Assembly (NCBI GenBank): GCA_022578605.1
Contig: MU394125.1
Span: 1-64,000 of the forward strand
Length of the DNA: 64,000 nt
Reading direction: 5' to 3'
Source of the DNA: Camillea tinctor
Lineage: Eukaryota; Ascomycota; Sordariomycetes; Xylariales; Xylariaceae
In this document: positions 52,225 through 60,284 of the stretch, piece by piece
Layout: every line of letters starts with the position of its first letter
Numbering within the stretch: the stretch's first letter is position 1
Made by a program: the position numbers and the translations under genes
Notes under the pieces: model-generated
What the model saw: only the letters and a program-made list of their open reading frames with translations
Told to the model about the DNA's origin: nothing
Database searches by the model: none

Positions 52225-54467
52225 ATGTTGGCTTCGCGCTTTTCCAGAGCTGTAAGTCCCCTCATCTTCCCCTCTTTGCGCAAATCCCATACCCGGTAGA
52301 TTTCTTGCATTGATCATGCGCTGACCACCAATGTTCCTACACAGCTTCCACGAGCAGCCGCCACAGCGCCCCGATGGGCAGCTCCTCTGCGGAAACCTCT
52401 AGGTGCCAGTTTCGCTCGATATGAGTCGACGGAGGGCAAGGTCCAGGGTGCCGTCATTGGTATTGACTTGGGTATGTTGCCAATTGCCGGCGCGCTCTTT
52501 GCTTCTTTTGTTATTCATGCTAATTGTCAATCATAGGTACGACGAACTCGGCTGTTGCCATCATGGAGGGCAAGGTTCCCAGAATCATTGAGAACTCAGA
52601 AGGTAATAAAAAATCCAATCGCTTGGAATCCAACTTAAGAGCGAACACTCCGAGCTAACCAGCTTCAGGTGCCCGTACCACACCGTCCGTTGTTGCTTTT
52701 GCCCAGGATGGTGAGCGACTCGTTGGTGTTGCTGCTAAGCGACAGGCTGTCGTCAACCCCGAGAACACCCTCTTCGCGACCAAGCGATTGATTGGACGCA
52801 AGTTCACTGATCCCGAGGTTCAGCGTGACATCAAGGAGGTCCCCTACAAGATCGTCCAGCACACCAACGGCGATGCCTGGGTAGAGGCCCGAGGCCAGAA
52901 ATACTCTCCTTCTCAGATCGGTGGTTTTGTTCTCAACAAGATGAAGGAGACTGCTGAAGCCTACCTGAGCAAGCCTGTCAAGAATGCTGTTGTCACTGTC
53001 CCCGCCTACTTCAACGACTCTCAACGTCAGGCTACCAAGGATGCTGGTCAGATCTCCGGTCTCAACGTTCTCCGTGTCGTCAACGAGCCCACTGCTGCTG
53101 CTCTGGCCTATGGTTTGGAGAAGGAGGCTGACCGTGTTGTCGCTGTCTACGATCTTGGTGGTGGTACTTTCGATATCTCTGTCCTTGAGATCCAGAACGG
53201 TGTCTTTGAGGTCAAGTCTACCAACGGTGACACCCACTTGGGTGGTGAAGACTTCGATATCCGTCTAGTCCGTCACCTTGTTCAGCAGTTCAAGAATGAC
53301 TCTGGCATTGACCTATCCAACGACCGAATGGCTATCCAGAGAATCCGTGAGGCCGCCGAGAAGGCTAAGATCGAGTTGTCTTCATCTCTCCAGACCGATA
53401 TCAGCCTTCCTTTCATTACTGCTGATGCTTCTGGCCCCAAGCACATCAACACCAAGATGACCCGGTCTCAGCTCGAGAGCATGATGGATCCCCTAATCTC
53501 CAAGACGGTTGAGCCTGTGCGCAAGGCCCTCAAGGATGCCAACCTCCAGGCCAAGGATATCCAGGAAGTCATCCTTGTCGGTGGTATGACCCGTATGCCT
53601 AAGGTTTCCGAGTCGGTCAAGAGCATCTTCGGTCGTGAGCCCGCTAAGTCTGTCAACCCTGACGAGGCTGTCGCCATTGGTGCTGCTATCCAGGGTGCTG
53701 TTCTCTCTGGTGAAGTCAAGGACCTGCTGCTTTTGGATGTTACTCCTCTGTCGCTCGGTATCGAGACTCTCGGTGGTGTCTTCACCCGTCTGATCAACCG
53801 CAACACCACCATCCCCACCAAGAAGTCTCAGGTCTTCTCCACTGCTGCCGACTTCCAGACTGCTGTCGAGATCAAGGTCTACCAGGGTGAGCGTGAACTC
53901 GTCCGCGACAACAAGCTCCTAGGTAACTTCCAGCTGGTTGGCATTCCACCTGCCCACCGCGGTGTTCCCCAGATTGAGGTCACCTTCGACATTGATGCCG
54001 ACTCGATTGTCCACGTTCATGCCAAGGACAAGAGCACCAACAAGGACCAGTCCATCACCATTGCCTCTGGATCTGGTCTGTCGGATTCCGAGATTGAGCA
54101 GATGGTTCAGGATTCTGAGAAGTACGCTGAGGCTGACAAGGAGCGCAAGGCTGCCATTGAGGCTGCCAACCGCGCTGATAGCGTTCTGAACGATACTGAG
54201 CGGGCTCTCAACGAGTATGCTGATAAGCTCGAGAAGACTGAGGCCGATGGCATCCGAGAGAAGATCACCTCCTTGCGCGAGTTTGTGACCAAGAGCCAGG
54301 CTGGTGAGGGTACTGCTACCTCCGAGGAGATCAAGGCGAAGACGGACGAGCTGCAGATGGCCAGCTTGAACCTCTTCGACAAGATGCACAAGGCCCGCTC
54401 CGACTCTGGTGAGCAGCAGCAGTCTAGCAGCTCGGAGCCTAAGCCCGAGGATGAGAAGAAGCCGTAA
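52225..54467 (+). CDS. SSC1: mitochondrial Hsp70 (Ssc1-type DnaK chaperone)
   Basis: Four exons are inferred: 52225-52251, 52345-52471, 52537-52602 and 52669-54467, giving 672 residues, the size of fungal Ssc1. Donors are GTAAGT, GTATGT and GTAATA. The spliced N-terminus starts [20 protein letters not shown], an Arg/Ala/Ser-rich mitochondrial presequence of about 40 residues. The first ATP loop is [18 protein letters not shown], interrupted by the second intron. Other Hsp70 signatures are [30 protein letters not shown] and [13 protein letters not shown]. The substrate-binding region has [17 protein letters not shown] and [18 protein letters not shown]. The tail ends in a Ser/Glu/Lys stretch without an EEVD motif, as expected for a mitochondrial form. 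It drives protein import with the TIM23 motor and folds matrix proteins. Confidence 0.97.
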
Positions 54468-55137
54468 ATACCCTCTGAGAATACATAATTTCTCTTTTGA
54501 CTTATTTTGCATTCCTGGGCAAGGGGTTCGGTTACCAGCTCGGTGTTCCTGTACTTCAACCTGTATTCATATTTATCCCTCTTCACGAGTTAAGAGTTCC
54601 TGCTACGGCGATCATGTCTTGATATACATTCGTGGGCGGAAGGCGTTCTGAGATCAGGGGGGGAAAACAAAAAAGCTTGACCTACGAACTTGAGAAATTT
54701 CATGCAATCGGTGATGACGAATGGTATTGGGAGGTTTAGCTCATGATGATCGTGGCCTGTATATAAAATGTTTTTTTTTCTTGTTTTAAGGAACCAAAAT
54801 TAATATAAAAAACATCCCCCCTCAAGAGATCCTGCGTAACTCCACGGAACACCAATCCAATCACTTGTGAAGTAAATGAAAAAAAAAAAAGGCATGGGAC
54901 ATGTTTTCTTGTATAGAAACGTCTTGAAATCGATTATCAGTCTTCCCCATCTAACTCCTCTTACACGCAGCCCTTTTGACAGGTTTATCCCCCTATATTA
55001 AGATCCAATTTTGGGTATACAGCTAGCTGATTAATAAAAATAGTTAAGAGTTAAAAGCAGAAATATCACGACAAGGAACCCCCATCGTAATCAGCTATTT
55101 TCTCGTAGGGAAGGTTAGTTACGATGTATTATTATTA
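54468..55137. other. intergenic between convergent genes
   Basis: This is the 3' flank of SSC1 and of the multicopper oxidase. It is AT-rich with poly-T and poly-A tracts. It may contain the true last exon of the oxidase gene, because a GTGAGT donor at 55218 and an acceptor at 55095 or 55102 would give an alternative C-terminus. Confidence 0.5.
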
Positions 55138-58005
55138 TTATTGTTCCATGCATATATACATACATCCGAGAAAGAGGAAGAATTTGTGTGGTGTGTGAGA
55201 GAAAGGGGAGGGGAAGGACTCACCATAAGAAACCACCGGCCTCTCCTGCTGCTGCGCCGCCGCGCTGTCGCAGAAGCCCAGGCTGCGCTGCCGGGTGCTC
55301 GGGTCCATGCGCGCGACTAGGTCGACGAGATCGCTTGGGCGCTCGGCGAGGGAGAGGAACATACCGCCTGTTTTTGTTAGAGGGGGTTAGCTTGGAGGAT
55401 GTCGTTTTTTTAAAGGGGGGTGGTACGGGGGGGATAAAAGGGGGAAGGAGGGGGTGGGAGTAGGGTAGGAGAGAGGAGGAGAAGAAGAAGAAGAACTAAC
55501 CTTCCATGTGCCACGCCACGTGGCAGTGCAGAGCCCACACCCCCGGGTTATCGGCGAGGAAGCGGATCACCACGTGCGAGAAGGCGGGCACGGTGACGGT
55601 GTCGCGGCGCATGGGGTTTTCGAGGTTCCAGGTTGTGCCGGTCGTGGTGGTGTTATCGGACGAGGGGGAGGAGCCGTAGTAGCCTTTGCCCCAGCCGACG
55701 ATTTGGAAGGTGTGGCCTATTTGGGGGGGTTTTTTTTTTGGTTAAGGGGGGGCTGAAACTTAGGTGTGGGGGGGAGGTAGACGGGTTCCGGAATATGGAT
55801 GGGGGAAGTAAATGAATAACGTACCACTGTCCCTCACTGTTAGCATATCTTCTCACGTATTCAAAAAAGAGAAATACACACACAGACTATAAGACTATTC
55901 ACAAAAGAGGGGAATGAAGGGAGAAACGTACTGCAAATGCCACGGGTGCTCCATCGCATCCCGGGAATTAATCACGATCTGCGCACCTTTATCCGCGTCC
56001 GGGACGAGGAAAACTTGCTGGTTGAGGCCAAAGTCCCAGCTACTATACGAGTTATCCTCTTCGGGCGCGAAGTGCTGCTCCAGGGCCTTCCAGAGCGTCG
56101 CATTGTGCGGGAGGGGTGCGTACGCCGTCTATCCCATAGGGTTAGTTCTCAGCCAAGAGAGGGGAAAAAAGAGAGGGAAATAAGGGGGGGGGAGGGCACC
56201 TTATTGATGAAAATCCGATTCACATCCTGCGCCTGCCGGAACGCGTACTCGAAGTAATGGCTATTCGCCTCCGCGACCTCGTACGCCGGGACTTTTCGCA
56301 TCGGCTTCGGCGCATCAAACGGTATATCATCACACCCTTCCCAGACCTGCCCCCTCGCGCCGTTATTCTCCACGCCAAAGGGGTTACTCGTGTTCCCCTT
56401 GCTCCCGAGCGGGGCCGCGTCCAGCGGCACCCCCTCATACGCGAGAACCCCCGTGGCGGCGTAGGCGGCCGAGTCGGCGAGCCCGGCGCTCGTGTAGGGC
56501 GCGTAGGGGAGGAAGCAGGTCTGCGGCAGCGTGGCGCGGATGCGGTAGAGTCCGGGCTCCTGGTCTGCGGTTAGCAGCACGGAGGCGCGCTGGCCCAGGT
56601 TGAGGTACACGCCCCGCTGTGCGGGGATGGGCTCGATTTCGACGCCGTCGAGTTCCACGATGGTGAGCGTGTGGTTGTCGATGCTGAGCCAGTAGGAGAG
56701 GAAGCTGGAGGCGTTGATGAGGCGGAGCCGCACCGTTTGGCCGGCGCGCACGCGCGTCGTGTAGAGTTGGCCGCCGGTGCAGGGTGGGTTTGGCGGGGAG
56801 AAGGGGGGGTGTTGCTGCTTGTCTGCTGATGATGGTGCGGAGGATTCGGGGCCTGGGTAGGTGGTTGAGTTTACGGTGCAGTCGTAGGTGTGCTGCCCGT
56901 TTAGGAGGATGTTATCTGCGAGGGGCTCGACGCCGGATTCGAAGGGTACCCATTTGGAGGTTGGGTTGAGGTAACTCGTGAGTAGCTTTACACGTGTGTT
57001 GTGCTTAGGGTTAACATATGGTTCCAGGAAGGGGTAAGGAAGGGGGTTAGTGTGGGGGCAGGGAAAAGAGTTGTTTCTATATATTGGCAAAAAGATATGT
57101 TCTTCTACTCACGATAGACCCATACGTGTGATACACATCGGTGACGAACATTATCTTGTCGTCGTCCGTCTTCGGTACCATCTCCTCTGGATCATGAATT
57201 ATCTACCTAACGTTAACATCTTCTCTAGGTGAGCCGATAGGAGCAATGTGCGTTATCTGACAATTGGTCCGTACATGCCATCCGTATACTGCACCGAGAG
57301 GTGCGCGTGCCACCAGAATGTGCCTCTCTGATCGGCGACTTGGAACTCGTATGTGAAGTTTTGCCCCGGTGGAATCCCGCATTGCGAGACGCTCGTCACG
57401 CCGTCCATCCAAGTTGTCCGTTTCTGATCGATGCCGTGCCAGTGTATCGTCGTGCTCCAGTTCGCCATCATGTTATTCACGTGCACTCGGATTGTGTCGC
57501 CGGTGTTCGCCTCAATTAACGGGCCCGGCGACTGCCCGTTCACTAGGATCATCGGCTTCTGGAACCCATCGGGCGCCGCGTACGCTTGGGAGACGTTAAA
57601 CACGTACTCGCGCACCTGGGTCTCGTGGGATACCGTGAAATCGGTGTCAAGCTCTAGCTCTCTCGAGTTGATGAGCTTGTCGATCGGTACGACGTCGAGG
57701 TTTTCCGGAATCCCATAGTAACTACTCAAGTTGATAGGCGCAGAGGCGTACACGGTCTTGTATCGCGGCCATCCGAGCCCCAGCCCGAGCCCCAACGCTA
57801 GCGCTAGGATGCAAAAACATACGAGAGAGGTCACAAAGACACAGAGTGATACTGTTCTTCGCGGTCGCTTTTCCGAAGCGAAGGCTGGTAAACCGTTAGA
57901 TCTTTTCCATACCCTACTCGACCAAGACAGCTCAGGCCGTGGGCTGCCTTCGTTCTCAAACGTCATCAACCCGCTCGCACTGTTGGTAGACCGATGGCCT
58001 CGCAT
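55138..58005 (-). CDS. multicopper oxidase (laccase/ferroxidase-like) with N-terminal membrane anchor
   Basis: Seven exons are inferred: 58005-57262, 57202-57113, 57003-56200, 56128-55932, 55826-55825 (2 nt), 55716-55501 and 55367-55138, giving 760 residues. A basic cytosolic stretch of 50 residues precedes one hydrophobic segment (about 51-77, [18 protein letters not shown]), so it looks like a type II membrane protein rather than a secreted laccase. All four copper motifs can be read: HWHG near 188, WWHAH near 230, HPWHLHGH at 607-614 and HCHVAWH at 676-682. The third motif depends on the 2-nt exon; joining the flanking exons directly gives HLQ and then a frameshift. Multicopper oxidases couple one-electron oxidation of phenols or Fe(II) to reduction of oxygen to water. 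The substrate cannot be assigned. The C-terminus is uncertain: the frame reads to 55138, but a GTGAGT at 55218 may start one more intron. Confidence 0.87.
55825..55826 (-). other. putative 2-nucleotide internal exon of the multicopper oxidase
   Basis: On the minus strand the dinucleotide TG is preceded by GCTAACagtgagggacAG and followed directly by GTACGT. The flanking introns would be 105 bp (55931-55827, donor GTACGT) and 108 bp (55824-55717, acceptor AAATAG), sizes normal for this window. Including TG turns CA|GC into CAT GGC, that is His-Gly. This restores both the reading frame and the conserved copper motif HLHGH. Confidence 0.6.
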
Positions 58006-58315
58006 ATTGTAATACTAAAAAAGCAGATGAGTTTGCACAACATGATCTACAGAGAACCCCGAGGCTTCATATGTTCAATGAGGTTATGACAAGGGAGGGA
58101 AGTAATTTACGAGCCAGATATGCGATGTTCCAGAGCGCGTTCTAGTGAGACATCAGTAGCAAGACTTACCTTACATATCTACCCTAGATCGTTAATGGAT
58201 ACGATAAGATAAAACCTAGCCAGGGGGAGAAGGAAAAGCAAAAATGGACAGAAAGCATAGTCTGTTTATTAGAATTTCTTTATTGGTATAGGTAGCCCAG
58301 GGACTATGGGGTGGG
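58006..58315. other. short intergenic: promoter of the multicopper oxidase, 3' end of SRP68
   Basis: Only 310 bases separate the SRP68 stop from the oxidase ATG, both on the minus strand, so the oxidase promoter probably overlaps the SRP68 3' region. No specific motif is claimed. Confidence 0.5.
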
Positions 58316-60284
58316 TTATCTGCCAAAGCCAAACCACCCTTTCTTTTGAGGGGCTGCCGATTGGGTTGTTTCATCTTGAGCTTCCGCAGCGACAGCTGGT
58401 CTCTTCCCGGGGTATTCGATATAATTCCAGGCGGCATCGAAGAATAAAGGTTTCACCGGGATGGGCTCAACTTTAGGCGGATAGTCCACCAGGTTTGTCA
58501 AGTCTACATCCTCTGCCGGATATTCATTTAATCTCTGGACTAGAGGAGTCTTGATCTTCGTCCCGGCTGAGTTCGACTTTTCTTGTAGATTTTCGATCTC
58601 AACAATAGCACGGCTTCTTTGTAACTCCCCCTTGAGTAAATCATGAAGGAAAACAGTGTCGGCCTGACGAATCTCTATATTACGTGGAGATGAGTCTGAA
58701 GATGGGGATGAACTCTGGTTAGAGAAGTAGTTGATGGATCGCTGGCATTGGTCGAATGCGTGCTTGATGAGAGCTAGAGCATTTAACGACTGATTGCTCA
58801 GCGAATGCGAACGCGCAATGGACAGACATCTATAGGTGGGGGTTTAGTACTAGGTCTGAGACATGCATGGGATAGAAATGCAAGGACATACTTGAGGGCT
58901 TGAAAGTAGTTCGCGGCCGCCTCCAACTGCTGAAGTAGGGATTCGTCGGCTGCAACACCGGCCAGATCTTTGATTGACTCGATACTCTGCAAAGTCGAGT
59001 CGTAGAGAACAACCTTCTCTTTGAGACGTGCGATCTTCCTACCGGGAGGTTCTAGTTTCGGTTTCCGTGCGGTGGCCTCTTTCTTAGCTTTCCGGGTGGT
59101 ATTAGGGGCAGAGTCAAGCAGGGCCCCATCGTGCTCTCCGCTGAGGACCCTATTGCGACCAATCCTCCAGCTGATCATCTGATAGTTGACAGCGGTGCGG
59201 GTGATCTGAAGGCCCTGCATACGGGAGTCGTTCTGGGATACGCCCTCCTCTCTTAGCTCGTCGATGGCGCGTTTCGTAGCATCTGCAGCATCCTGGCTCG
59301 CTGTAAGTACTTCATCGTAGGCAGCGGCCATTTCCTTGGGCAGAACAACGTCCGAAGAAGCTAGCTTCTCAGCCAATCGAGAAATAGCAGAATCCGTGGA
59401 GGCTAGGGCGAGGGCGATGGCAGCATCCTCGATCTTCACTTCTCGACCCCTCCAGGTAATAGTCTGGGGCGCATTTTGGGCGCCAACTTGGCCTTGACTA
59501 GCATCTGAACCATTCTCCTGCAGCAATTCGGGTGCGAACTTGGTAACTCGGGACACTAGGGTTTCATCGGAAGAAGGGAAGGCTTTTCTGGCAATAGTGG
59601 GTATGGCCAAGGTGCGCGGGATCTTGCTCTGGTATGCAGCATATCGGATGGACGGGTCAATGGTCTCGGTCAGGAGATCCTTGAACAAGTCGGCTTTCAT
59701 AGAGGCGGCGAGGGCATTGTATACGATACGAGCGGTTGCATAGCTGCGCAAGCAAGACTCCCAACTACGTTTTTCGAACTCGGTGGCACCCCTGATCAAG
59801 GAGGCATAGGCTCGTGCCTCGAGAATATCGGTATCGTTGGCACGGCTGGCAGAGCTGTCGGACAAGAGCTCAGCGAGGTGCTCGGCAGTTCGAGCACCTT
59901 TGTCAAGTCGCGAGATGATGTGAGAGCGGGTTCGACCGGTGATGCCGTTTGCATCTGTGGAGTGGGCAGCTTTGTATCGCATTGCGTGGGCCCAGGCTCG
60001 CTCAGCCGTCAACAGGACGAGATGAAGATATCTTGTACGATCAGGTAGTTTAGCAGGATGGCATGTTAAACAGAGGTTCATGTTACCTACTCATGGTTTT
60101 CTGCTATTTGCTCAGCAGTCACAGAGCCTCCCTTGTTGGTAAACTTGCCCCGGTTCTTGGTCACGATGTTCAGCTTCTTCCGAGACTTGTGTAGCTTCTT
60201 GGCTAAGAGTCTGTGGTAGGTGGTGTAATCGCCATAAAGCAAGGCCTGGTTTCTTGCGGACACTACGAAATCGGTGATGTCCAT
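58316..60284 (-). CDS. SRP68: signal recognition particle subunit SRP68
   Basis: Three exons are inferred: 60284-60091, 60031-58892 and 58829-58316, giving 615 residues, normal for fungal SRP68. Donors are GTAGGT and GTATGT; acceptors are TACAAG and TATAG; the introns are 59 and 62 bp. The N-terminus has the basic RNA-binding tetratricopeptide-like region: SARNQALLYGDYTTYHRLLA, then KKLHKSRKKLNIVTKNRGKF and, after the join, AENHEYLHLVLLTAERAWAH. The mid region has WESCLRSYATARIVYNALA and ITWRGREVKIEDAAIALALA. The C-terminal part (KVEPIPVKPLFFDAAWNYIE, ending KKGWFGFGR) is the segment that contacts SRP72 in other species. With SRP72 it binds the S domain of SRP RNA and supports translational pausing and ER targeting. 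Confidence 0.95.

Follow-up and report, generated by a model that had tools for sequence, protein, structure and literature searches.

A multicopper oxidase gene is located on the minus strand of the window (the whole 64,000-nucleotide stretch of Camillea tinctor DNA that was analysed), at positions 58005..55066. Its identity was established by matches, exon by exon, to the Pfam domains Cu-oxidase_3, Cu-oxidase and Cu-oxidase_2. The copper motifs HWHG, WWHAH and HCHVAWH are all present, and HPWHLHGH is present only when a TG dinucleotide is spliced in between exons 4 and 6. With the TG counted as an exon, eight exons encode a product of 735 residues with the three Pfam domains, in a frame that is otherwise open. 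The product carries a hydrophobic N-terminal stretch that, judged by eye, resembles a membrane anchor.

Exon 1 (744 nt, 57262..58005) begins with the start codon at 58005 and encodes HWHG, WWHAH and the Cu-oxidase_3 match. It is followed by exon 2 (90 nt, 57113..57202), exon 3 (786 nt, 56200..56985), which contains the Cu-oxidase match, and exon 4 (197 nt, 55932..56128), which ends in phase 2 with CAT TTG CA. Intron A (105 nt, 55827..55931) runs from GTACGT to CAG, the putative 2-nt exon TG occupies 55825..55826, and intron B (108 nt, 55717..55824) runs from GTACGT to TAG. Exon 6 (216 nt, 55501..55716) starts with GC CAC ACC and contains HCHVAWH and the Cu-oxidase_2 match; exon 7 (144 nt, 55224..55367) and exon 8 (29 nt, 55066..55094), which holds the stop codon, complete the gene. 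Exons 1, 2, 7 and 8 were defined by splicing and by comparison with P0001, the 737-residue protein deposited for C. tinctor. P0001 was reproduced only when exon 3 started at 56985, and the join at that position matched a strict pattern in 54 of 81 relatives and a loose pattern in 65 of 81. The remaining five introns measure 59, 127, 71, 133 and 129 nt, and the distance from the branch A to the acceptor in the gene's other introns is 9 to 25 nt.

The reading frame at 52659..54467 on the plus strand, which matches HSP70 (PF00012, E = 3e-256), is directed towards the 3' terminus of the oxidase. The upstream neighbour (58005..60090, minus) lies on the same strand as the oxidase, and its open frame stops at 58316. 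Its product is similar to the N-terminal half of fused models carrying PF16969, one of which, P0073, is named as a signal recognition particle subunit. In 23 of 120 homologues (the best 120 of 1148), proteins of approximately 1090-1300 residues unite PF16969 with the oxidase domains; in Camillea the two are separate. These fusions are probably products of annotation.

The junction between exons 4 and 6

The sequence elements described in the earlier note were all found at the junction on the minus strand. Exon 4 ends in CCGTGGCATTTGCA at 55932 and is followed directly by the donor GTACGTTTC. GCTAAC lies at 55844-55839, and a CAG ends at 55827, 12 nt past the last C of GCTAAC. The TG at 55826-55825 comes next and then the second GTACGT donor, in GTACGTTATTC from 55824. 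AAATAG ends at 55717 (TAG, 55719-55717), and the next exon, GCCACACC, starts at 55716. The intron sizes of 105 and 108 nt were likewise correct, and the region spans 215 nt including the TG. Complete introns with canonical sites therefore flank the TG on both sides (GTACGT...CAG-TG-GTACGT...TAG). The two donors are identical, the acceptors are CAG and TAG, and a candidate branch site CTAAC (55839..55843, branch A at 55840) stands 13 nt ahead of the end of the CAG. In intron B the branch-site candidate is TTAAC at 55745-55741. A run of ten A followed by seven C (55723..55739, minus) lies between this candidate and the TAG, and slippage there could alter the distance from branch site to acceptor.

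When exon 4 was joined straight to exon 6 and translated, the reading frame was lost and the conserved motif was broken. Inclusion of the TG, with the spliced junction reading CATTTGCATGGCCACACC, restored HLHGH and kept HCHVAWH in frame, as the earlier note had proposed. Retention of intron A, with or without intron B, led to an early stop, as did retention of intron B alone. Since skipping the TG shifts the frame and retaining either intron introduces an early stop, only the doubly spliced mRNA, among these products, encodes the full copper site.

The T of the TG completes a His codon as its third base and the G opens the following Gly codon, converting CA/GC to CAT GGC. Among the matches listed for the orthologue P0005, the two best homologues of solved structure have HPFHLHGH aligned to HPWHLHGH. 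In the laccase of Botrytis aclada, the T1 copper is bound by His426 and a type 3 copper by His431, with His429 placed at the type 2 position (PMC4220974). The Camillea motif has the same HxxHxH spacing as these three residues, and by mapping on that spacing the third His of HPxHxHGH would be a type 3 copper ligand. The Camillea gene differs from the described Botrytis laccase in its anchor-like N-terminal stretch, noted by eye, and in that the codon for the third His is split by intron A.

The degree to which the sequence dictates this solution was assessed by exhaustive search. Wherever its boundaries were set around the junction, a single excision never restored the motif. When all pairs of GT/GC-AG introns of at least 30 nt each were considered, exactly one two-intron solution restored it, and this was the TG exon. 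A further 103 in-frame two-intron combinations, among them one with an 8-nt exon, kept the downstream HTFQIVGWG, not the exact motif. In the genome a G follows the CA and an A stands before the GGC, so at least one pyrimidine has to be brought in from another position; and as only TG or CG restores His-Gly, there was little freedom to fit.

Chance occurrence was assessed with 20,000 dinucleotide-preserving shuffles of the region interior, with both introns required to be at least 40 nt. The bare arrangement AG-[TC]G-GT occurred in 844 of the 20,000 shuffles, in 59 when a GTNNGT donor was required, and in 19 with a GTRNGT donor, one of these 19 also having CTRAC. Requiring a YAG acceptor together with GTRNGT left 9 shuffles of 20,000, and adding a CTRAC branch site left none. 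The arrangement around the TG is more than chance. As the unique GT/GC-AG solution that restores the motif, and one with good splice signals, the exon proposed in the earlier note was supported, and on the sequence evidence the best reading is that the TG at 55826-55825 is very probably a real 2-nt coding exon.

The deposited model and other readings of the junction

P0001 differs from the product of the 2-nt exon only at the junction, where it has HLQDSGH in place of HLHGH. When GGACAGTG was placed in the position of the TG, the translation of the window matched P0001 letter for letter. The earlier note had held that gene predictors would not model so short an exon. The deposited model does, however, place a micro-exon here, one of 8 nt that yields HLQDSGH, so that gene predictors were not wholly blind to a micro-exon at this site. 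The candidate junctions are thus CATTTGCA-TG-GCCACACC, CATTTGCA-GGACAGTG-GCCACACC and the direct join CATTTGCA-GCCACACC.

The 8-nt exon of the depositors (55825..55832, with a GAG acceptor at 55835-55833) keeps the frame with GT-AG introns and reproduces P0001 exactly, and its presence in the deposited model counts against the 2-nt reading. If the mature mRNA carried it, two residues would be inserted, the third His would be lost, and the oxidase would be defective or altered, whereas the 2-nt exon keeps the copper ligand. The GAG lies only 7 nt past the branch A, short of the 9 to 25 nt seen in the gene's other introns; in contrast, the distance from the branch A to the CAG of the 2-nt exon is 13 nt, the same as in intron 3. 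GAG acceptors are rare in fungi compared to CAG or TAG, and intron 7 of the oxidase gene itself skips a GAG in favour of a TAG. In addition, the two-residue insertion was, by eye, unique to P0001 among 120 proteins (the best 120 of 1148). We consider it very unlikely that the 8-nt exon is the one used.

A lesion or assembly error was also considered, in which the junction has lost or gained bases, the true structure is one intron of approximately 215 nt, and the TG is coincidental. The A10 and C7 runs of intron B are of a kind prone to sequencing error, although they are intronic. With the other five introns at 59 to 133 nt, one of 215 nt would exceed every other in the gene, and the TG arrangement was rare by chance, with 9 of 20,000 shuffles when the branch site was disregarded and none when it was included. 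The same junction is also broken in models from other Xylariales genomes, and the number of such models, 11 of which seem to continue into a donor at this very position, makes a lesion private to this assembly less likely. Such an error is, on this evidence, very unlikely.

The remaining reading invokes a stwintron, in which an intron sits within a splice site of a second intron and the whole 215 nt would be removed in two reactions with no base retained. Stwintrons have been described in the Hypoxylaceae and Xylariaceae, families of the same order (PMC9024468, PMC12403724). Like the Camillea pair, they are two tightly linked introns that need consecutive splicing, but a stwintron splits a splice site and leaves no exonic base, while the Camillea pair keeps two bases between the introns, and each of its donors is an intact, uninterrupted hexamer. 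Stwintron removal amounts to excising one contiguous stretch, and none of the single excisions restored the motif. We regard this reading as extremely unlikely.

Three further origins or mechanisms were rejected. Recursive splicing at a ratchet point, with a 0-nt exon, does not fit AG-TG-GT, where two bases stand between acceptor and donor. An introner origin was discarded because the 215-nt stretch matched only itself in the genome in a search that skipped simple repeats and very common words. Neither intron appears to be a copy of the other, as their likeness over the full length was no better than that of shuffles (68 of 500 were as good).

The junction in related protein models

The best 120 of 1148 homologues, all deposited protein models, were compared. 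We take 81 of them, grouped by name, to belong to the Xylariales in the broad sense, and 39 to other groups; the placement of Camillea and Monosporascus was looked up. These models are not independent, as they come from related species and shared pipelines. At the DNA level, the Biscogniauxia marginata protein was scanned against viral and prokaryotic contig collections, in which no relative was found. HPxHxHGH was absent from 39 of the 81 Xylariales models, while HWHG was absent from 2, W-x-H-x-H from 1 and HCHxxWH from 9, and the patterns at three other junctions were missing in 5 (J1), 11 (J3) and 13 (J6) of the 81; models that end early after the TG junction contribute to the last of these figures. 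Among the 71 Xylariales models with both HWHG and HCHxxWH, HPxHxHGH was still missing in 30.

The left flank of the motif was kept in 35 of the 39 failing Xylariales models, with Q as the next residue in 21 and H in 14. In 11 of the 21 models that continue as HLQ or HMQ, the sequence reads Q, a residue with a TNN codon, and V, which corresponds to read-through of a CA/GTNNGT donor at the phase-2 position. The binomial probability of this count, at 1/64 for each model and ignoring relatedness, is 4e-15; one model, P0024, may represent a different join. QYVS was found in four of five Monosporascus models, as in Camillea's own intron A, and two of three Biscogniauxia models were broken (P0002 and P0004) with one intact (P0003). 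The donor of intron A thus seems to be common to species beyond Camillea.

In five of the failing Xylariales models, HLHG is followed by run-on sequence. Run-on after HG was also found outside the Xylariales, in P0096, P0108 and P0109, and P0109 reads HGTLY compared to HGTLF for intron B of Camillea. This suggests, from broken protein models, that B is the older intron and that A was added 2 nt upstream. Decoding the inserted residues of single models, such as the SGH endings and the HG with run-on, is suggestive only. Junction failures thus occur outside the Xylariales, less often: a looser contiguous pattern was present in 35 of the 39 other models, including P0096 with its run-on after HG, and the four mismatches were P0108 and P0109 (run-on after HG), P0114 (HLQGQ, with no insertion) and P0120 (HAQYF). 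P0114, from Colletotrichum scovillei and standing for a cluster of 23 sequences, reads HPWHLQGQNFQ, with Gln for the third His and no insertion. Its splicing could likewise have been misannotated there, or the ligand could have been lost naturally, and because of P0114 the third His is not invariant among the deposited models.

The 42 of 81 Xylariales models that are intact, including P0003, may come from genes of simpler structure. Within the C. tinctor genome the Cu-oxidase domain matched 13 places, the oxidase gene included, and the HxHG segment was uninterrupted in all eight paralogue loci examined. Taken over these models, it is plausible, at slightly below an even chance, that the 2-nt exon is an old feature of the Xylariales, in which A was gained 2 nt upstream of the older B, both were kept, and a near intron pair coexists across several families.

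Proposed stepwise splicing and known ultra-short exons

By analogy with the model put forward for the 1-nt APC11 exon of Arabidopsis (PMC4674806), the most likely mechanism combines intron definition with removal in steps. Introns A (105 nt) and B (108 nt) would each be recognised by intron definition. Only 2 nt separate A's acceptor from B's donor; simultaneous occupancy would therefore be unlikely, and two ordinary GT-AG reactions would take out the introns sequentially, whichever went first. Removal of A first would leave CATG/GTACGT, and removal of B first would leave GACAG/TGGCCAC; both should be usable. In the mature message, the TG would complete the type 3 copper ligand by turning CA/GC into CAT GGC. 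We infer the use of the TG exon by the spliceosome, the sequential order of removal and the conservation in relatives.

The earlier note had placed exons this short at or beyond the limit of splicing. This view is dated, since support exists for exons of a single nucleotide in both Arabidopsis (PMC4674806) and Fusarium (PMC12940212). In plants, they were described in APC11 and VPS55 (PMC4674806, PMC8831610). Like the Camillea exon, these lie between two ordinary introns, have been accounted for by intron definition and stepwise removal, and are absent from reference annotations; unlike it, they are plant exons of 1 nt that were tested experimentally. When the APC11 exon was changed to TT, splicing was incorrect in rice protoplasts (PMC4674806), which indicates that a 2-nt exon is not automatically tolerated.

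Nelson and Syed (2026) reported a 1-nt exon with read support in Fusarium CYP621A, termed the first in a fungal gene, and cited exons of 2-5 nt in Arabidopsis, Drosophila and human (PMC12940212). Both this exon and the Camillea TG are fungal exons of 1-2 nt within a conserved motif that bridge incompatible phases with GT-AG introns on both sides. The Fusarium exon differs in being 1 nt in a P450 gene, with 20 orthologues at the DNA level and reads in two species, whereas the Camillea exon is predicted from its genomic sequence. Exons of 3 nt have been mentioned in a fungus (PMC5639578). The phrase "2 nt exon" in PMC7725694 proved to be the wording of a deletion table and does not denote an exon of 2 nt. 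A term search of the stwintron paper PMC9024468 yielded no passage on micro-exons, and among the open-access papers listed, judged by title and start of abstract, no description of this exon or of another fungal 2-nt exon was found. Near intron pairs, in which introns of a gene family occupy two positions separated by less than 32 nt, are comparable to the Camillea pair, and their coexistence in one gene has been held very unlikely (PMC2891723). In Camillea, by contrast, the positions are 2 nt apart and both are occupied.

If the reading is correct, the TG is a fungal addition to the very short list of exons of 1-2 nt, located at a copper ligand, and the gene holds a natural example of a near intron pair whose two members coexist. 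It would also offer a direct test of stepwise, intron-defined splicing, in that the two single-intron intermediates can be distinguished. Many deposited oxidase models of the Xylariales, 39 of 81 of which lack the motif, may then be wrong at the active site. If the 2-nt exon is old in the Xylariales, annotation has failed for almost half of the compared models, and every active transcript would be spliced stepwise through a catalytic codon.
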